A stretch of 27,095 nt of DNA from Nitrospirota bacterium. Its GTDB lineage: Bacteria; NPL-UPA2; JAADIA01. Below, piece after piece: positions 4,313-24,458 of the stretch (the first letter of the stretch is position 1; each line of letters opens with the position of its first letter). The translations under genes were made by a program, and so were the position numbers. The stretch is from assembly GCA_013151555.1 (NCBI GenBank), contig JAADIA010000078.1:1-27095 (forward strand). The letters are read 5' to 3'. The notes under the pieces are model-generated. The model worked only from the letters and a program-made list of their open reading frames with translations, had not been told where the DNA came from and ran no database searches.

Positions 4313-5626
4313 TTAAAAGCTATATCTTACCGTTACCTGGACATTATCATCTTTCTTGTGTTGACCCAAAGCAGTGTTTGGATTACTCCCGCCAAAGATG
4401 TTTACTCCCAGCATCGCCTGGAGATTATCGGTAAAGTTATAACTAACCTCCGGCATTAGCAAAAAGTCCTCCGCGTCCGGACTATAGAGAGAAAACAAGG
4501 AAAGCTTCAGGGTTTGATATTTAAGCAACTTTGTAAGTCTCAAAGCAAGGTATTGATGAAGCTGTTGTCTCTTCCCAAATGCGGAAGGCAGGTTATCTTC
4601 ATACTGACGGTATTCATACATCAGTTCGCCATAATATTGGAGTCCAAGGGTAAAATCACCGGGGAAGGCCTTTTGATACCCAATCAAGAATTTTGATTGA
4701 GAATTGTCAATCCCGGGATTGCTTCCTTCTCGATCGTCCCGGGAATCGTAATAGCCGTATTCAGCGCTCACTACTCCTCCTAAGGCGCTTTTCTGGGCAC
4801 TCATTCCATAGACAACCAACTTCGGATAGAAATATGAAATAGTGGAAGGGGAATTAAAATTATCGGCTTTCATCCCGGGAGTTCTAAAAAAACCTTTGTA
4901 AGCGTAAACCGAAACGTCAAAGTCTCCAATATATCTATATAGTCTTAAGGCATACTCGGTATTGTGAAAAGTTGAGCCGGGTTTACCGGTAGCTCTATTC
5001 GTAACAGCCGGATAGGGGTCAAAGGAATGGAATCTCCCCGGAGAGGGGAGAGCATCCGGCTCAAAAAAGGGGATGGCAACAGCCTCAATTGATACAAGGT
5101 CGGAATAAACCTCCACCTTTAGGCTATCCACTCCTATCTTCAAATACTCCAGGGGCCTTCCGGAATAGAAGGCTTGCCAATCCTTGGGAAAGACATCATT
5201 GATAAAGAGAAGGTCTCCCACTCCCCAGGTAATTATCTGCCGGCCCATTCTCAGGGCAAATTTATCCCCCGTAAAGTCCAAATAACCTTCCCGAAGGTCT
5301 GCCTTAAACTCTGTTTCAACCCAATCGTGGTAAAAATCAGATTTTATAAATGCTCCTATTTTGCTTTTTGGGGGATAAAACGAACCTTTGAGCTCTACTC
5401 TTTCTTCTCCCCAGAGCAGATTCCCCTTCTTTGCTTGCGGCGGATTATTATCCGAGAACCTAAGCGAATAATCCGTCTGGAAGAAACCCTGTAAGGACAA
5501 CTCCCCGGCAAAAGCAGAAGGCAGAAGACAGAAGACAGATAACAGAAGAAAGATGAGAGATAACAGATAAGAGATTTTTCTGACTTCTGTCTTCTGACTT
5601 CTGTCTTCTGAATTTACCTTATCCAT
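4313..5626 (-). CDS. outer-membrane beta-barrel protein, DUF1302/porin-like
   Basis: A 437-residue protein with a signal peptide (cleavage near SAFA-GE, residue 40) and many alternating aromatic strands; it ends in QVTVRYSF, the C-terminal phenylalanine typical of BAM-inserted barrels. The stretch RMGRQIITWGVGDLLFINDVFPKDW resembles the DUF1302 family, whose genes often accompany RND exporters and LolA-like proteins. The ATG at 5626 overlaps the upstream gene's stop by 13 bp, implying translational coupling. It is probably the outer-membrane partner or cargo of the exporter; no substrate can be read from sequence. Oddity: codons for residues 6-39, the whole signal peptide, consist of a palindrome of repeated words (5515-5610). 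Confidence 0.7.
   Translation of the reverse strand: MDKVNSEDRSQKTEVRKISYLLSLIFLLLSVFCLLPSAFAGELSLQGFFQTDYSLRFSDNNPPQAKKGNLLWGEERVELKGSFYPPKSKIGAFIKSDFYHDWVETEFKADLREGYLDFTGDKFALRMGRQIITWGVGDLLFINDVFPKDWQAFYSGRPLEYLKIGVDSLKVEVYSDLVSIEAVAIPFFEPDALPSPGRFHSFDPYPAVTNRATGKPGSTFHNTEYALRLYRYIGDFDVSVYAYKGFFRTPGMKADNFNSPSTISYFYPKLVVYGMSAQKSALGGVVSAEYGYYDSRDDREGSNPGIDNSQSKFLIGYQKAFPGDFTLGLQYYGELMYEYRQYEDNLPSAFGKRQQLHQYLALRLTKLLKYQTLKLSLFSLYSPDAEDFLLMPEVSYNFTDNLQAMLGVNIFGGSNPNTALGQHKKDDNVQVTVRYSF
5515..5610. repeat. word-repeat palindrome inside the barrel gene's signal-peptide codons
   Basis: Left arm (5515-5548) is built of GCAGAAG / ACAGAAG words and the right arm (5584-5610) of CTTCTGT / CTTCTGA words. 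The arms are inverted copies of each other with about 35 bp between them. On the coding strand they give the charged n-region (SEDRSQKTEVRK) and the hydrophobic core (LLLSVFCLLPSAFA). Confidence 0.85.
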
Positions 5627-6426: not shown

Positions 6427-6451
6427 TTTGAGACCTCCTTTGCAAATAGGC

Positions 6452-6699
6452 GATAATGTCAAAAACTTTTATCTGAAACCCTTTTTAACCTTTCACCCTT
6501 TTCTTAAACACTCTCCAAGAATCCATAACCTAATTTGTTATATACTTTATAAGCACATCCTATAATTTTCTCCGTTAATCCTTCATCCTGCATCTTTACT
6601 ACCTCTTTTAGGTTCTGATTTACATGATAACTTATCCTGGCTATCCTGTTTATCCTGTCAAATTTTCTTCATGTCTTTTTTATGTTATTTTTGACACTA
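6452..6699 (-). mobile_element. non-autonomous mobile element, copy B, with GxxExxY gene remnant
   Basis: A 248-bp insertion flanked by a perfect 10-bp duplication, GCAAATAGGC at 6442-6451 and 6700-6709. Its ends are inverted: GATAATGTCAAAAA at the left and TTTTTGACACTA at the right. The right 75 bp match copy A (9014-9155), including one arm of TATCCTG words (6632-6660) and the terminal TTATTTTTGACACTA. On the minus strand it carries the N-terminus of a GxxExxY-family gene (6459-6593). The element now supplies the last nine codons (SVKNNIKKT) and stop of the exporter gene. Deleting one duplication plus the element restores KSLFAKEVSK-stop, with its TGA overlapping the next ATG. Confidence 0.85.
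6459..6593 (-). pseudogene. GxxExxY-family (PD-(D/E)XK-like) gene remnant
   Basis: From the ATG at 6593 (AGAGGTAG nearby as a binding site) the frame reads MQDEG, then LTEKIIGCAYKVYNKLGYG, then GFLESV, and hits TAA at 6504-6506. This is the start of GxxExxY proteins up to the naming motif; the family tyrosine that should follow GFLESV is replaced by TAA (one base from TAT). The frame then continues EKGERLKRVSDKSF to a TGA at 6459-6461 inside the element's left end. About 45 codons remain of a usual 120-130, so the middle is deleted. Members are PD-(D/E)XK-like proteins of unknown function. Recognition is from memory of the family and should be confirmed by profile search. Confidence 0.75.
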
Positions 6700-8987
6700 G
6701 CAAATAGGCTTTTACCCCAGATCCTCATAAGGGCCGGAAGCAAAATAAGCGTGGTCAGGAAACTAAAGATCATCAAGATGGAAAAAAAGGCTCCTACGGT
6801 TATATAAGGAGTGAGGGTAGCTCCCAATAAGGGCAAAAAACCAAAGGTTATAACGATGGCATTCCGGGTGATGGCCCGGGCCGGTTCCTGGAAGATATAG
6901 GCATTAGTAGCCTCAATATTTTTGTACTTCTTATATCCAGCTCTAAAACGCTGCAAGAAATGGATGGCAAAATCGATGGCCATGCCCAAGCTCAAAGCTG
7001 AAACTACGGCAATAGGCATATCATAATCTTTTCCCAGGAATCCGACCAGTCCATAGGAAGAAATAATGGCAAAGCTCAGTGGTAACATGGAAATTATCGC
7101 CAGCCTTAGAGAGCGAAACTCAAAAATCATCAGCAAAAATACGATAAAAAAGCTTCCCGATACCGCCTTAAGCATTCCGAAGACCATCAGGTTCTGCCAG
7201 ACCTTATTAATATAGGTGAGACCCGACCAGCTAACCGTTATCCCGGCAGGAGGCGGATTTTTCTTTATAAAAGCGGAGGTGGAATCCTCAACCCGGCTCA
7301 TCTGGATATTGTCTCCCCCTTTCATCTGGACCCAGATATTGGCTTTTTGGGCTCCATAATCTATAAAATTATCCAGCTCATTCGGGTCTCCGGTCATAGA
7401 GAATAAGAAAAGATACTGACCAATCTCATTGCGCTTCCCGGGGACAGAGTCAAAGGACTTGTTCTCATCATGAAGGACATAATTGATCCTTTTGACAATG
7501 TCGGCGATGGAAGAAGTTTTACCGACAATCTTCAGGTTGGCAAGATGATTCTGCAGCTTATTGATATAAGCCATTACCGCCGGATTTTTGATGGCCTCTT
7601 CCTTATCGCCTTTTACCACTAAATAAGCCATATAGGTTCCCCCGAAGAACTTGTTCATAACCTTGTCGGCAATTCTAATCTTCTGGTTTGGTTTAAACCA
7701 TTTTACCGGGTTGTCGTTAATCCGGATTTGTTTGATTCCTATTATTCCTGCCAGCAAAATTATCGCTGCCCCGATAAGGATAACCTTACTTTTTGCAAAA
7801 GCAAAATTACCCAGAGGTTTCAACATTCTATCTAAAAACGACCTTTTTTGCCGCCTTCTTTCCAAAAAGAGGGCGAGTTTTTCTTCATTCATAAGCATTA
7901 TTATGGCCGGGACTACCGTGTGAGAAAACAACCAGGCAGCCATGATGCCGAAGGCGACAAAAAGGCCGAATATTCTCACGGGAGGAATATCCGCCATAGC
8001 CAGGGAAGCAAAGCCAACCGCCGAGGTAATCGAGGTGAAGAACATGGGACGGTAAAGGTCTTTCATGGTAGCAATGATCGTTTTTCGTTTATCTTTGATA
8101 AAGGGATAACGGTCGAAAAAGTCACTTAAGATGTGGATGTCATCCAGGAGGGCAATAGGCATAAGGAAGATGGGAATCATGGAACTCATAATATGAACGG
8201 GAAACCTCAGGCCGATTAAAAGTCCCATGGCCCAGACCACCGCTAACACCGCATCCATCATCGGGGAAATGAGAAACACTCCTTTTCTAAAAAGAAGGAA
8301 AAGAAGGATGAGAATAAAGAGCCCGGCCAGGGGAGCGGTAATGCCCATCTGGATAAACATGTCATGACCAAAAGTAGCCTCGGCAACGGGTAAACCGGCT
8401 AAGTAGTATTTCTCTTCCGGAGATAATTCTTTTTTAAGAATTCTTTTAATTTCTTTGGATATGCGATAACCTTCGGATTTCTTGGCTATGGGAATATAAA
8501 TAGCGGTAGCCTTACCATCTTGAGAAACAATTTTATCAACAAAGAAAGGGTTGCCATAAACGGCATTTTTAAGCTTTTCTATCGCCTGGGGGTTTTGAGG
8601 GACTTCTTCCATAAAATGCTTTATTACGAGGGTGCCATTTTCGGAAGTGACATTATCCGAGGTGCGCAAACTCACTACATTCTCAATAATTACGCCTTTA
8701 ATCTTCAGGATAGCATCCGTTACCCGGGCAATTCTTCTTAAGGTATCGGAATTAAAAATCCCCTGTTTATCAACAATACCGACCACTAAAAGGTCATGAA
8801 TGCTGAATTCCTTTTTCATCTTTTGGTAAAAAACTCTCTCCGGTTGATTCTGCTCAAGCATATTCTCCGGGTCGGTATCTATTTTTATCTTGGGAAATTG
8901 CAGGGCAAAAAATATGGTCGCGATTAAGACTAAGAATATGGTTGTTTTGGGGAACCGGGTAACTATGCCCGTTAATTTGTGTAACAC
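6669..8987 (-). CDS. RND/MMPL superfamily exporter (COG1033)
   Basis: A 772-residue inner-membrane exporter with the RND layout: TM1 at 13-30, a large periplasmic loop, a bundle of five helices (about 210-370), TM7 (near 400), a second periplasmic loop and a second helix bundle from about 610. The sterol-sensing/RND stretches MPIALLDDIHILSDFF and LSLGMAIDFAIHFLQRF are typical of the HpnN/MMPL-like group that moves lipids or hydrophobic compounds by proton motive force. The start is the GTG at 8987 with GGGAGA 7 nt upstream. Mobile elements flank it on both sides; the last nine residues and the stop come from copy B, so the native tail was probably KEVSK. Substrate is unknown, but partners point to outer-membrane lipid or lipoprotein transport. 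Confidence 0.9.
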   Translation of the reverse strand: MLHKLTGIVTRFPKTTIFLVLIATIFFALQFPKIKIDTDPENMLEQNQPERVFYQKMKKEFSIHDLLVVGIVDKQGIFNSDTLRRIARVTDAILKIKGVIIENVVSLRTSDNVTSENGTLVIKHFMEEVPQNPQAIEKLKNAVYGNPFFVDKIVSQDGKATAIYIPIAKKSEGYRISKEIKRILKKELSPEEKYYLAGLPVAEATFGHDMFIQMGITAPLAGLFILILLFLLFRKGVFLISPMMDAVLAVVWAMGLLIGLRFPVHIMSSMIPIFLMPIALLDDIHILSDFFDRYPFIKDKRKTIIATMKDLYRPMFFTSITSAVGFASLAMADIPPVRIFGLFVAFGIMAAWLFSHTVVPAIIMLMNEEKLALFLERRRQKRSFLDRMLKPLGNFAFAKSKVILIGAAIILLAGIIGIKQIRINDNPVKWFKPNQKIRIADKVMNKFFGGTYMAYLVVKGDKEEAIKNPAVMAYINKLQNHLANLKIVGKTSSIADIVKRINYVLHDENKSFDSVPGKRNEIGQYLFLFSMTGDPNELDNFIDYGAQKANIWVQMKGGDNIQMSRVEDSTSAFIKKNPPPAGITVSWSGLTYINKVWQNLMVFGMLKAVSGSFFIVFLLMIFEFRSLRLAIISMLPLSFAIISSYGLVGFLGKDYDMPIAVVSALSLGMAIDFAIHFLQRFRAGYKKYKNIEATNAYIFQEPARAITRNAIVITFGFLPLLGATLTPYITVGAFFSILMIFSFLTTLILLPALMRIWGKSLFASVKNNIKKT

Positions 8988-9013
8988 CAGAATATCTCCC
9001 TACGCTCTTACGG

Positions 9014-9155
9014 GTAATGTCAAAAACTTACCCACTTCATTTGACAGGATGAACAGGATAAACAGGATTTTAATTCTCAGATGACTTATCCTGTCTATCC
9101 GGTTAATCCTGTCAAATGTTCTTCATATCTTTTTCATGTTATTTTTGACACTATC
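9014..9155. mobile_element. non-autonomous mobile element, copy A (MITE-like)
   Basis: A 142-bp insertion flanked by a perfect 9-bp duplication, CTCTTACGG at 9005-9013 and 9156-9164. Ends are GTAATGTCAAAAAC and ATTTTTGACACTATC, related to those of copy B (6452-6699). The interior is a palindrome with arms of about 29 bp made of ACAGGATAA-like words (9041-9069 and 9088-9116), with only about 18 bp between them. No coding remnant is left. The element supplies the stop codon TAG (9151-9153) of the ArsR-methyltransferase gene. Without it that gene would end in VVAVRA-TAG twelve bases before the exporter's GTG. Confidence 0.85.
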
Positions 9156-10065
9156 CTCTTACGGCCACTACTCCATAATTGTATTGGCCTAATTCCATGG
9201 TCTTATGAATACAAAATTTATTCTTTATCAGTATCTCTTTCATCATAGATAGAGAAATCCTCTCTTCGAGCGGCGGCCCTAAGGGGGAGGGAACTTTCTT
9301 CCATTCAATAATAGCTATTTTGCCTTTATCTTTGAGTAAACGTCTCAGTTCCCGAAAGAATAAGTCCCGGTTTTCCAATTCATGGACCATAGCGGAAAGG
9401 AAGCAATAGTGGACCTCTTTTGCCTTAAGGGGTATTTTATTCTCTTGAGAAAGGAGCACCTCGACATTATGAAGTTTTTCTTTTTCGATTCTTTCTCTAA
9501 GGTCAATTAACATTTCTTTAGAGATATCCGCAGCGAAAACCTTTCCTTTTTCCCCCACAAGGCAAGCAAGAGGAAGAGTAAAGAATCCTGTTCCACAGCC
9601 AATATCAGCCACCGCCATCCCGGCCTTTATCCCCAGAGATATTAGAGCCTTTTCCGGATTAAGCAATTTTTTTCTCTCGGGACTATCCAACTTTTCCTTC
9701 ATCTCGAGAGGAAACTTATGCACCTTTTTAGGATACTGATTCTGAGCACTCATTTTCTTAACCAACTTTTCATTCTCAGCCAATTGTTCAAAGAGCACCT
9801 CTTTCAAAATATCGCAGGCTTTAATCATCTTGGGATTAGCAATTTTGTAATAAATATTTAAACCGGCCCTCCGAGTTGTTACAATCCTGCCTTGTCGTAA
9901 AATTGCCAAATGTTGAGAGAGATTTGCCTTACGCAGCCCTAACAGTTTAGTCAATTCTTCTACAGATTTTTCTCCTTCCCGCAAAGAGTTAAGAATCTTC
10001 AAACGAATAGGGCTGGAAAGGCTTTTGCAAACCTCGGCATGCATCTGAAATATCTTTTCTTCCAT
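9151..10065 (-). CDS. ArsR-family regulator fused to a SAM-dependent methyltransferase
   Basis: A 304-residue fusion. Residues 1-95 are an ArsR/SmtB winged helix (LSSPIRLKILNSLREGEKSV, then LLGLRKANLSQHLAIL as recognition helix). Residues 140-300 are a class I methyltransferase with motif I ADIGCGTGFFTLPLA, the acidic DIS after strand 2, and FLSAMVHEL. I see no metal-binding cysteine pair typical of arsenic sensors. The ATG at 10065 has GGGAGGTG 5 nt upstream; a 12-codon longer frame has no site. It is first in the exporter operon, and a palindrome at its own transcription start suggests autorepression. The methyl acceptor is unknown. The last residue and stop come from the mobile element downstream. 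Confidence 0.88.
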   Translation of the reverse strand: MEEKIFQMHAEVCKSLSSPIRLKILNSLREGEKSVEELTKLLGLRKANLSQHLAILRQGRIVTTRRAGLNIYYKIANPKMIKACDILKEVLFEQLAENEKLVKKMSAQNQYPKKVHKFPLEMKEKLDSPERKKLLNPEKALISLGIKAGMAVADIGCGTGFFTLPLACLVGEKGKVFAADISKEMLIDLRERIEKEKLHNVEVLLSQENKIPLKAKEVHYCFLSAMVHELENRDLFFRELRRLLKDKGKIAIIEWKKVPSPLGPPLEERISLSMMKEILIKNKFCIHKTMELGQYNYGVVAVRG

Positions 10066-10100
10066 GTTACACCTCCCGGGATTATCCTGTTTCATAATCA

Positions 10101-10118
10101 ATTAATTGCGCAACTATT
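10101..10118. promoter_or_regulatory. candidate ArsR operator
   Basis: TTGCGCAA (10106-10113) is a perfect palindrome with partly symmetrical A/T flanks (ATTAA / CTATT). It covers the predicted start point of the promoter at 10116-10144, a position suited to autorepression by the adjacent ArsR protein. The link is inference. Confidence 0.4.
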
Positions 10119-16172: not shown

Positions 16173-16241
16173 ATTATGACTCCTATTTCTGGTTATGAGT
16201 TAGCAACTTTATCCTGCCCGCGATGGGAAGAGGGGGGATAA

Positions 16242-16348
16242 ATAGGCACAGAGGCACAAAGCAGCAAAGGCACAAAGGAAAAATAAGGGCCAACACCTGC
16301 TATTTTTTAGATCTTTTAACTCTGTGCCTTTGTGCCTCTGTGCCTATT
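16242..16348. repeat. word-repeat palindrome between ahcY and metK
   Basis: Left arm (16242-16276) of GGCACAGA / GGCACAAA words, right arm (16319-16348) of their inverse (TGTGCCTTTG, TGCCTCTG), with about 43 bp of A/T-rich spacer. It ends two bases before the metK stop codon. I find no target duplication around it. Confidence 0.85.
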
Positions 16349-24350: not shown

Positions 24351-24368
24351 CTCATCTCCAGTTATAAG

Positions 24369-24458
24369 AATTCAGCCTTCAGGATTCAGACGCTCACGCC
24401 GTTCGCTCTCAGAATTAAGTTTTTTGCTGAATCCTGAATCCTGAAGGCTGAATCCTAA
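24369..24458. repeat. word-repeat palindrome between kdsC and kdsA
   Basis: Left arm ATTCAGCCTTCAGGATTCAG (24370-24389), right arm (24427-24453) of CTGAATC / CTGAAGG words, its inverse, with about 37 bp between. It runs into the kdsA stop codon (24455-24457). Confidence 0.85.

Follow-up and report, generated by a model that had tools for sequence, protein, structure and literature searches.

The window, i.e., the whole stretch of 27,095 nucleotides that was analysed, is contig C80 of a 1.8-Mb genome in 99 contigs. It holds two related elements, copy A (9014-9155) and copy B (6452-6699), which share 91% over 74 nt and have ends of the form GATARTGTCAAAAA (Table 1). Both carry terminal inverted repeats and 9-10-bp target duplications, i.e., the features of a DDE-type MITE. 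The chance of a flush 9-mer repeat like those flanking the copies is about 4e-5 per copy, and the end GATARTGTCAAAAA occurs at 9 sites in the genome (at most one mismatch), compared to none for the reversed control. Both copies are located at the 3' ends of protein genes and outside any 23S rRNA helix; the sole match of an Rfam scan of the window is a tRNA. In copy B, TAGTGTCAAAAATAACATAAAAAAGACATGA provides the last codons and the stop of an upstream MMPL-type gene (6669-8987, minus strand), and the end of copy A supplies the stop of the gene 9151-10101 (minus strand). The window also contains three further word hairpins, built from other words: CAGAAGACAGAAGACAG at 5515-5610 and TTCAGCCTTCAGGATTCAG at 24367-24456, both with a period of 7, and AATAGGCACAGAGGCACAAAG at 16241-16348 with a period of 9. 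That is, both word classes discussed below are present in the window.

Table 1. Features of copies A and B (positions in the window).
Feature	Position	Strand	Basis or remark
Left target duplication, copy B, GCAAATAGGC	6442..6451		identical to 6700-6709
Left terminal inverted repeat, copy B, GATAATGTCAAAAA	6452..6465	+	sequence and genome-wide end search
GxxExxY remnant, N-terminus only; ATG at 6593, family homology 6507-6578	6504..6593	-	profile matches
Apparent deletion junction ending the GxxExxY remnant of copy B	near 6515-6525	-	
Single word arm left in copy B, minus-strand GACAGGATAAACAGGATAGCCAGGAT, upstream of the gene start	6634..6659	-	
Right terminal inverted repeat, copy B, ...TTTTTGACACTA (also read as TAGTGTCAAAAATAACATAAAAAAGACATGA)	6688..6699	-	
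Right target duplication, copy B, GCAAATAGGC	6700..6709		sequence
Left target duplication, copy A, CTCTTACGG	9005..9013		
Copy A, hairpin without gene, ends GTAATGTCAAAAA ... TTTTTGACACTATC	9014..9155		
Word arm, copy A, TTGACAGGATGAACAGGATAAACAGGAT, period 9	9040..9068	+	
Inverted word arm, copy A	9088..9117	-	
Right target duplication, copy A, CTCTTACGG; last codons of gene 9151-10101 (minus)	9156..9164		

The minus-strand frame 6504-6668 reads ...MQDEGLTEKIIGCAYKVYNKLGYGFLESV*. As proposed by the first-pass annotation, it contains the remnant of a GxxExxY gene: the profile run yields matches to TIGR04256 (positions 2-25, E 1.2e-5) and to PF13366 (PDDEXK_3, positions 3-26, E 1.1e-5). For PF13366, the 26.2 bits are above the gathering score of 22, while the 25.6 bits for TIGR04256 stay below the whole-protein cut-off of 35 because 24 residues remain. 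The final stop of the frame indeed lies in the terminal inverted repeat, i.e., past the TAA a TGA is found within TTTTTGACATTATC of the left repeat. The annotation had further described the gene as cut at the family tyrosine. The TAA at this residue most likely represents a deletion junction rather than a nonsense mutation, since the N-terminus of the sister copy C24 crosses TTTTGGAGAG directly into the C-terminus (FGEKRVDIKRKVRTL) and the opposite arm. Flanking word repeats, claimed for both copies, are found in copy A, with 19 nt between its two arms, and not in copy B, where a single arm (6634-6659) is left.

A family search of the contigs reports GxxExxY pieces at C80, C24, C19, C54, C40 and C9, and no full-length gene in this assembly. 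The first five adjoin or lie between ACAGGAT words and, when aligned, are parts of one gene: the N-terminus is common to copy B and C24, the C-terminus to C24, C19, C54 and C40. In C24, both termini are fused across TTTTGGAGAG with a word arm on each side, which gives word / gene / inverted word as the parent order in this genome. About 60 more word matches of the genome come without a gene; the gene-less hairpins look like dispersed or decayed relatives of the gene-bearing unit. No copy of the element was found in eight genomes of the same phylum (search without positive control), which fits a horizontal arrival.

To screen GxxExxY genes of other genomes, the upstream 350 bases were compared with the downstream 350 bases in reverse complement, and a score of at least 17 was considered positive. 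Intact genes lie between inverted word repeats in 69/79 cases (one per genome, about 22 named phyla of bacteria and archaea), and the same holds for 16/20 genes of a second set, which is free of the bias to one subfamily that the single consensus query brings to the 80-locus set. By comparison, inverted flanks are found for only 1/30 ParE toxin genes of the same genomes (p 3e-13 vs. 69/79; p 2e-7 vs. 16/20), and the median flank score is 24.5 for GxxExxY and 12 for neighbouring small ORFs. Since loci share words, a swap control for inverted flanks is inflated, such that ParE, neighbouring ORFs and the direct orientation were used instead. The parent arrangement suggested from the window (word-repeat / GxxExxY / inverted word-repeat) thus exists intact and is general across phyla, and we regard the association of GxxExxY with words as firm, i.e., close to certain. 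A parent with the window's own word type is found as well: genome G158 (locus L314) encodes an intact gene close in sequence to the remnant (ELTELIIGCAYKVHKELGMGFLEKVYENAL) among ACAGGAT/ACAAGAT hairpins.

Genes for four-helix-bundle proteins (TIGR02436, 23S rRNA-IVS-type) are likewise framed in 21/27 cases. The window's own genome contains five full and one partial four-helix-bundle genes (L067-L072 on C34, C89, C45, C62, C51 and C5), several of which are located between inverted 7-nt word arms, e.g., AGTTATGAGTTACAAG. At another locus (L074:3350-3980), an unrelated second ORF is framed by CGCCGAT words, the same ones as in the GxxExxY unit beside it, while L080 shows the GxxExxY unit alone at this position; cargo swapping is a possible explanation of the difference.

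The arms are made of tandem words, e.g., CRCMGATGAACRCMGAT, CGCAGATTACGCAGATT, CACAGAGGCACAGAG, CGCGAAGGAACGCGAAGG or ACAGGATTAACAGGAT. For GxxExxY, the word period is 8-10 nt (exactly 10 in 57/69), compared to 7 or 14 nt in most (18/21) of the framed four-helix-bundle genes. With its period of 9, the window word ACAGGATNN belongs to the GxxExxY class. Word and protein also match within the family: on a tree built from 100 GxxExxY proteins, the distribution of the word core is explained by 4 changes vs. 9.5 in shuffles (minimum 7), which, given short proteins and many open forks, shows clustering rather than exact co-descent.

Dispersed words furthermore co-occur with the gene in trans. Of the genomes with GxxExxY, 11/14 contain a CRCAGAK pattern of three words, compared to 2/46 of those without (p 7e-8), where part of the matches are the flanks of the GxxExxY genes themselves; restricted to genomes of at least 2 Mb, the counts are 10/13 and 1/27. 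Among GxxExxY-negative genomes, these words are independent of four-helix-bundle genes. Two genomes, G055 and G048, have CRCAGAK matches in the range of 40-49 each, vs. only one to four GxxExxY genes. The ACAGGAT triple word is found in 10/386 genomes (reversed control 0); beside the window's own genome, 8/9 of these encode GxxExxY vs. a baseline of 13/59 (p 2e-4). None of 30 ACAGGAT loci fetched from the 10 genomes has GxxExxY within 1.5 kb, i.e., most word hairpins are gene-less. With a query of one subfamily, 8 of 72,556 plasmid records matched GxxExxY, and no phage did at the sensitivity used. A different picture is seen in G016 (2.5 Mb; L197, L209), which shows 19 partial TIGR02436 matches, often as divergent pairs, along with CGCAGAG words and no GxxExxY; the four-helix-bundle system may have expanded here in another way.

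With regard to the protein, 39 relatives show the invariant motifs GFLExVY, D, ExK and QxxNY. The AlphaFold model (pLDDT 95) has the helix/strand order of PD-(D/E)XK, and its best fold neighbour in the PDB is SSO0001 (Z 9.8), while no PDB relative was found by sequence. Lambda-exonuclease-, Cas4- and Hjc-resolvase types follow with Z 6-8, and the fdxN element excision controlling factor (2okf) is listed with Z 6.1, where values below 8 reflect a shared fold only. We therefore consider GxxExxY a small nuclease of the PD-(D/E)XK type, with its catalytic motifs complete and a predicted DNA-cutting activity.

We propose a REPIN-RAYT-like system that is based on this nuclease and spreads its own word hairpins in trans. 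Each GxxExxY clade has its own word (8-10-nt period) in its units; the protein would recognise hairpins of this word as folded DNA and cut or process them, such that hairpins with or without a gene could be copied to new sites, mostly directly past the stop codon of a co-oriented gene. As RAYT transposases do for REPINs, one or few conserved genes under selection would thereby sustain many small palindromic elements in trans. A comparable system with 7-nt words appears to exist in parallel for four-helix-bundle (23S rRNA IVS-type) proteins. Copy B is read as a dead derivative of a unit in which a GxxExxY gene of some 120 codons lies between a 9-nt-period arm (TTGACAGGATNAACAGGATNNACAGGAT) and its inverted counterpart. 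For mechanism and derivation taken together, we see the chances as evenly balanced; architecture, word-protein match, co-occurrence in trans, conservation of both parts, fold and decay series are observed, while word recognition, cutting, mobility and the chemistry behind the 9-10-bp duplications are inferred. The first-pass annotation considered the protein either cargo of, or an actor in, transposition. Clade-word match and co-occurrence in trans favour the actor without proving it, and the match could also result from joint inheritance without recognition. Several observations speak against the proposed system: words occur without GxxExxY in two genomes (G002 and G016), the 30 fetched ACAGGAT loci have no GxxExxY within 1.5 kb, the gene of L314 sits between complete hairpins and not inside one, and, as detailed below, neither a general target duplication nor a transposition event was seen and several units are vertically conserved.

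The ends could alternatively be read as an ordinary MITE, i.e., an outer layer that comprises the GATARTGTCAAAAA ends with their 9-10-bp duplications and is mobilised in trans by a DDE transposase, with the hairpin and the GxxExxY piece as passengers. Such duplication lengths are common among DDE elements, which together with the ends and flush duplications of both window copies is in accordance with this reading, as is the fact that identical ends enclose a different word at C95:16377. Still, no transposase-bearing element was found among the inspected GATARTGTCAAAAA end sites of this incomplete assembly, and GxxExxY genes are generally framed by words with no such ends. The expectation that TGTCAAAAA ends and 9-10-bp duplications are a general rule is not supported: for 92 other word/GxxExxY units, flanking direct repeats do not exceed the control in length (using arm-defined boundaries, the true ones being uncertain). 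That is, copies A and B share terminal inverted repeats and duplications with MITEs, while neither feature is shown for the other units. The ends and duplications of the window are real but may be a local outer layer; as an account of the elements as such, we consider the MITE reading unlikely.

Somewhat less probable still is a homing scenario, in which word hairpins exist between genes as repeats in their own right and GxxExxY, as a homing-type nuclease gene, inserts into the loops of those it cuts. The location of the gene inside a hairpin and the clade-specific words would be expected from it, and a precedent is given by the IVS in rRNA helices 25 and 45 (PMC4990558). Hairpins of different words are also found nested, e.g., in contig C16, where L013 (G000:C16:87-480) forms a concentric 'onion' in which at least 3 different words surround a common centre, as though hairpins had entered older loops; layering as considered above for the window's ends hence does occur. 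On the other hand, free-standing targets should be common in genomes without the gene, of which only the above 2/46 have the words, and the whole hairpins flanking the L314 gene disagree with an insertion into a loop.

Returning to the proposed hairpin-spreading nuclease, both parts of the unit are conserved. In eight syntenic species pairs with heavily diverged synonymous sites, GxxExxY shows dN/dS values of 0.03-0.14 (a ninth pair is saturated). Over eight pairs, the arms are 84% identical vs. 67% in the remainder of the arm-to-gene stretch (p 6e-11). Units can thus persist for long, with gene and arms both constrained. Within the highly conserved arms, 8 compensated pairs are observed between syntenic species vs. 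29 broken ones, most of the latter from one divergent species pair. As several units have stayed in place through vertical inheritance, any mobility is at best slow. With regard to location, GxxExxY shares the strand with its upstream neighbour in 51/62 loci, and a median of 8 nt separates the neighbour's stop codon from the arm (both without matched control); the window units are likewise found at gene ends, i.e., of the MMPL-type gene and gene 9151-10101. Strong purifying selection, synteny and arms directly past upstream stop codons would also suit a host-beneficial nuclease (e.g., for defence) whose flanking hairpins control or stabilise the transcript, with the dispersed words as generic, immobile 3'-UTR hairpins, a reading we regard as improbable, as it leaves unexplained why word period and core track the encoded protein family, why dozens of words occur in trans with the gene, and why internal-deletion derivatives between arms arose repeatedly.

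Loss of a unit is observed in a cyanobacterial pair (G055/G060): the gene-less species retains a C-terminal GxxExxY scar much like the window, i.e., the unit was lost and not gained. Over about 137 kb of this one close pair, neither a clean empty site nor a unit insertion was found; the differences comprise the deletion scar, a TA-flanked MITE with 7-nt words and probable assembly oddities. No transposition event was seen in the comparisons made, where recent insertions are hard to see because the collections hold one genome per species. The MITE-like insert TAGCAATCGAAGATTG...TTTTGCTA is located in stretch L248 of G055 (near G055:C1:727280), contains the 7-nt words TGCCTAC and TGCCTCT, is possibly flanked by a TA duplication and is also present elsewhere in aligned G060 stretches. 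Furthermore, several places in G060 (L260-L279) vs. G055 (L240-L259) follow an X-a-X-Y-b-Y pattern with unrelated inserts of about 24 nt, which is probably an artefact of assembly gap closing.

Among known systems, REPIN-RAYT (TnpA-REP; PMC3116915, PMC8049555, PMC8266576) has features also seen for GxxExxY units: one conserved gene, small dispersed intergenic palindromes, co-occurrence of gene and repeats, a repeat type matched to the protein and long-term maintenance. REPIN-RAYT relies on a Y1 HUH transposase and REP palindromes, while GxxExxY units combine a PD-(D/E)XK nuclease with tandem 8-10-nt words in inverted arms. That is, the GxxExxY gene is flanked by and co-occurs with dispersed palindromes as in REPIN-RAYT, and the framed gene is GxxExxY rather than a Y1 HUH transposase; since this defining transposase is absent, we keep the two apart.

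Intervening sequences of 23S rRNA also carry one small ORF, encoding an S23/four-helix-bundle protein, within inverted arms that form one long stem, and horizontal spread has been proposed for them (PMC4990558). They reside in rRNA helices and are excised by RNase III (PMC4990558), while GxxExxY units are intergenic and encode an unrelated nuclease fold; members of the IVS protein family (TIGR02436) occur here in dispersed hairpins with 7-nt words. TAACTGA heptamer repeats are dispersed, phylogenetically scattered tandem words for which the co-distributed XisH was suggested as partner (PMC4679880). They resemble the GxxExxY words in being short, tandem and intergenic with a suggested partner protein of the same fold (cf. 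2okf in the above fold list), but are direct repeats upstream of start codons without an inverted-arm-framed gene or GxxExxY (PMC4679880). Within the open-licence literature, no description of the GxxExxY word-hairpin arrangement was found (of two papers naming GxxExxY, the one examined is silent on it and the other concerns a virus genome), and six word strings occur in no paper.

GxxExxY genes form a huge, widespread family for which, to our knowledge, no role is established, and we likewise know of no explanation for the origin of tandem-word hairpins between bacterial genes. With the two found together, and with word period and core set by the encoded protein, both questions become open to direct tests; the near-constant framing across many phyla suggests a single self-spreading system of gene and words. 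That the S23/IVS family does the same with 7-nt words connects the intervening sequences of rRNA with a broader set of hairpin elements. We tentatively consider, at slightly less than even chances, that GxxExxY and, independently, S23-type proteins each recognise their own tandem-word hairpins and drive the dispersal of these, which would make them two parallel, undescribed classes of hairpin-based mobile elements in bacteria and archaea, one of them relying on a PD-(D/E)XK nuclease. If so, the widespread intergenic repeats of the CACAGAG, CGCAGAT and ACAGGAT type would be explained.
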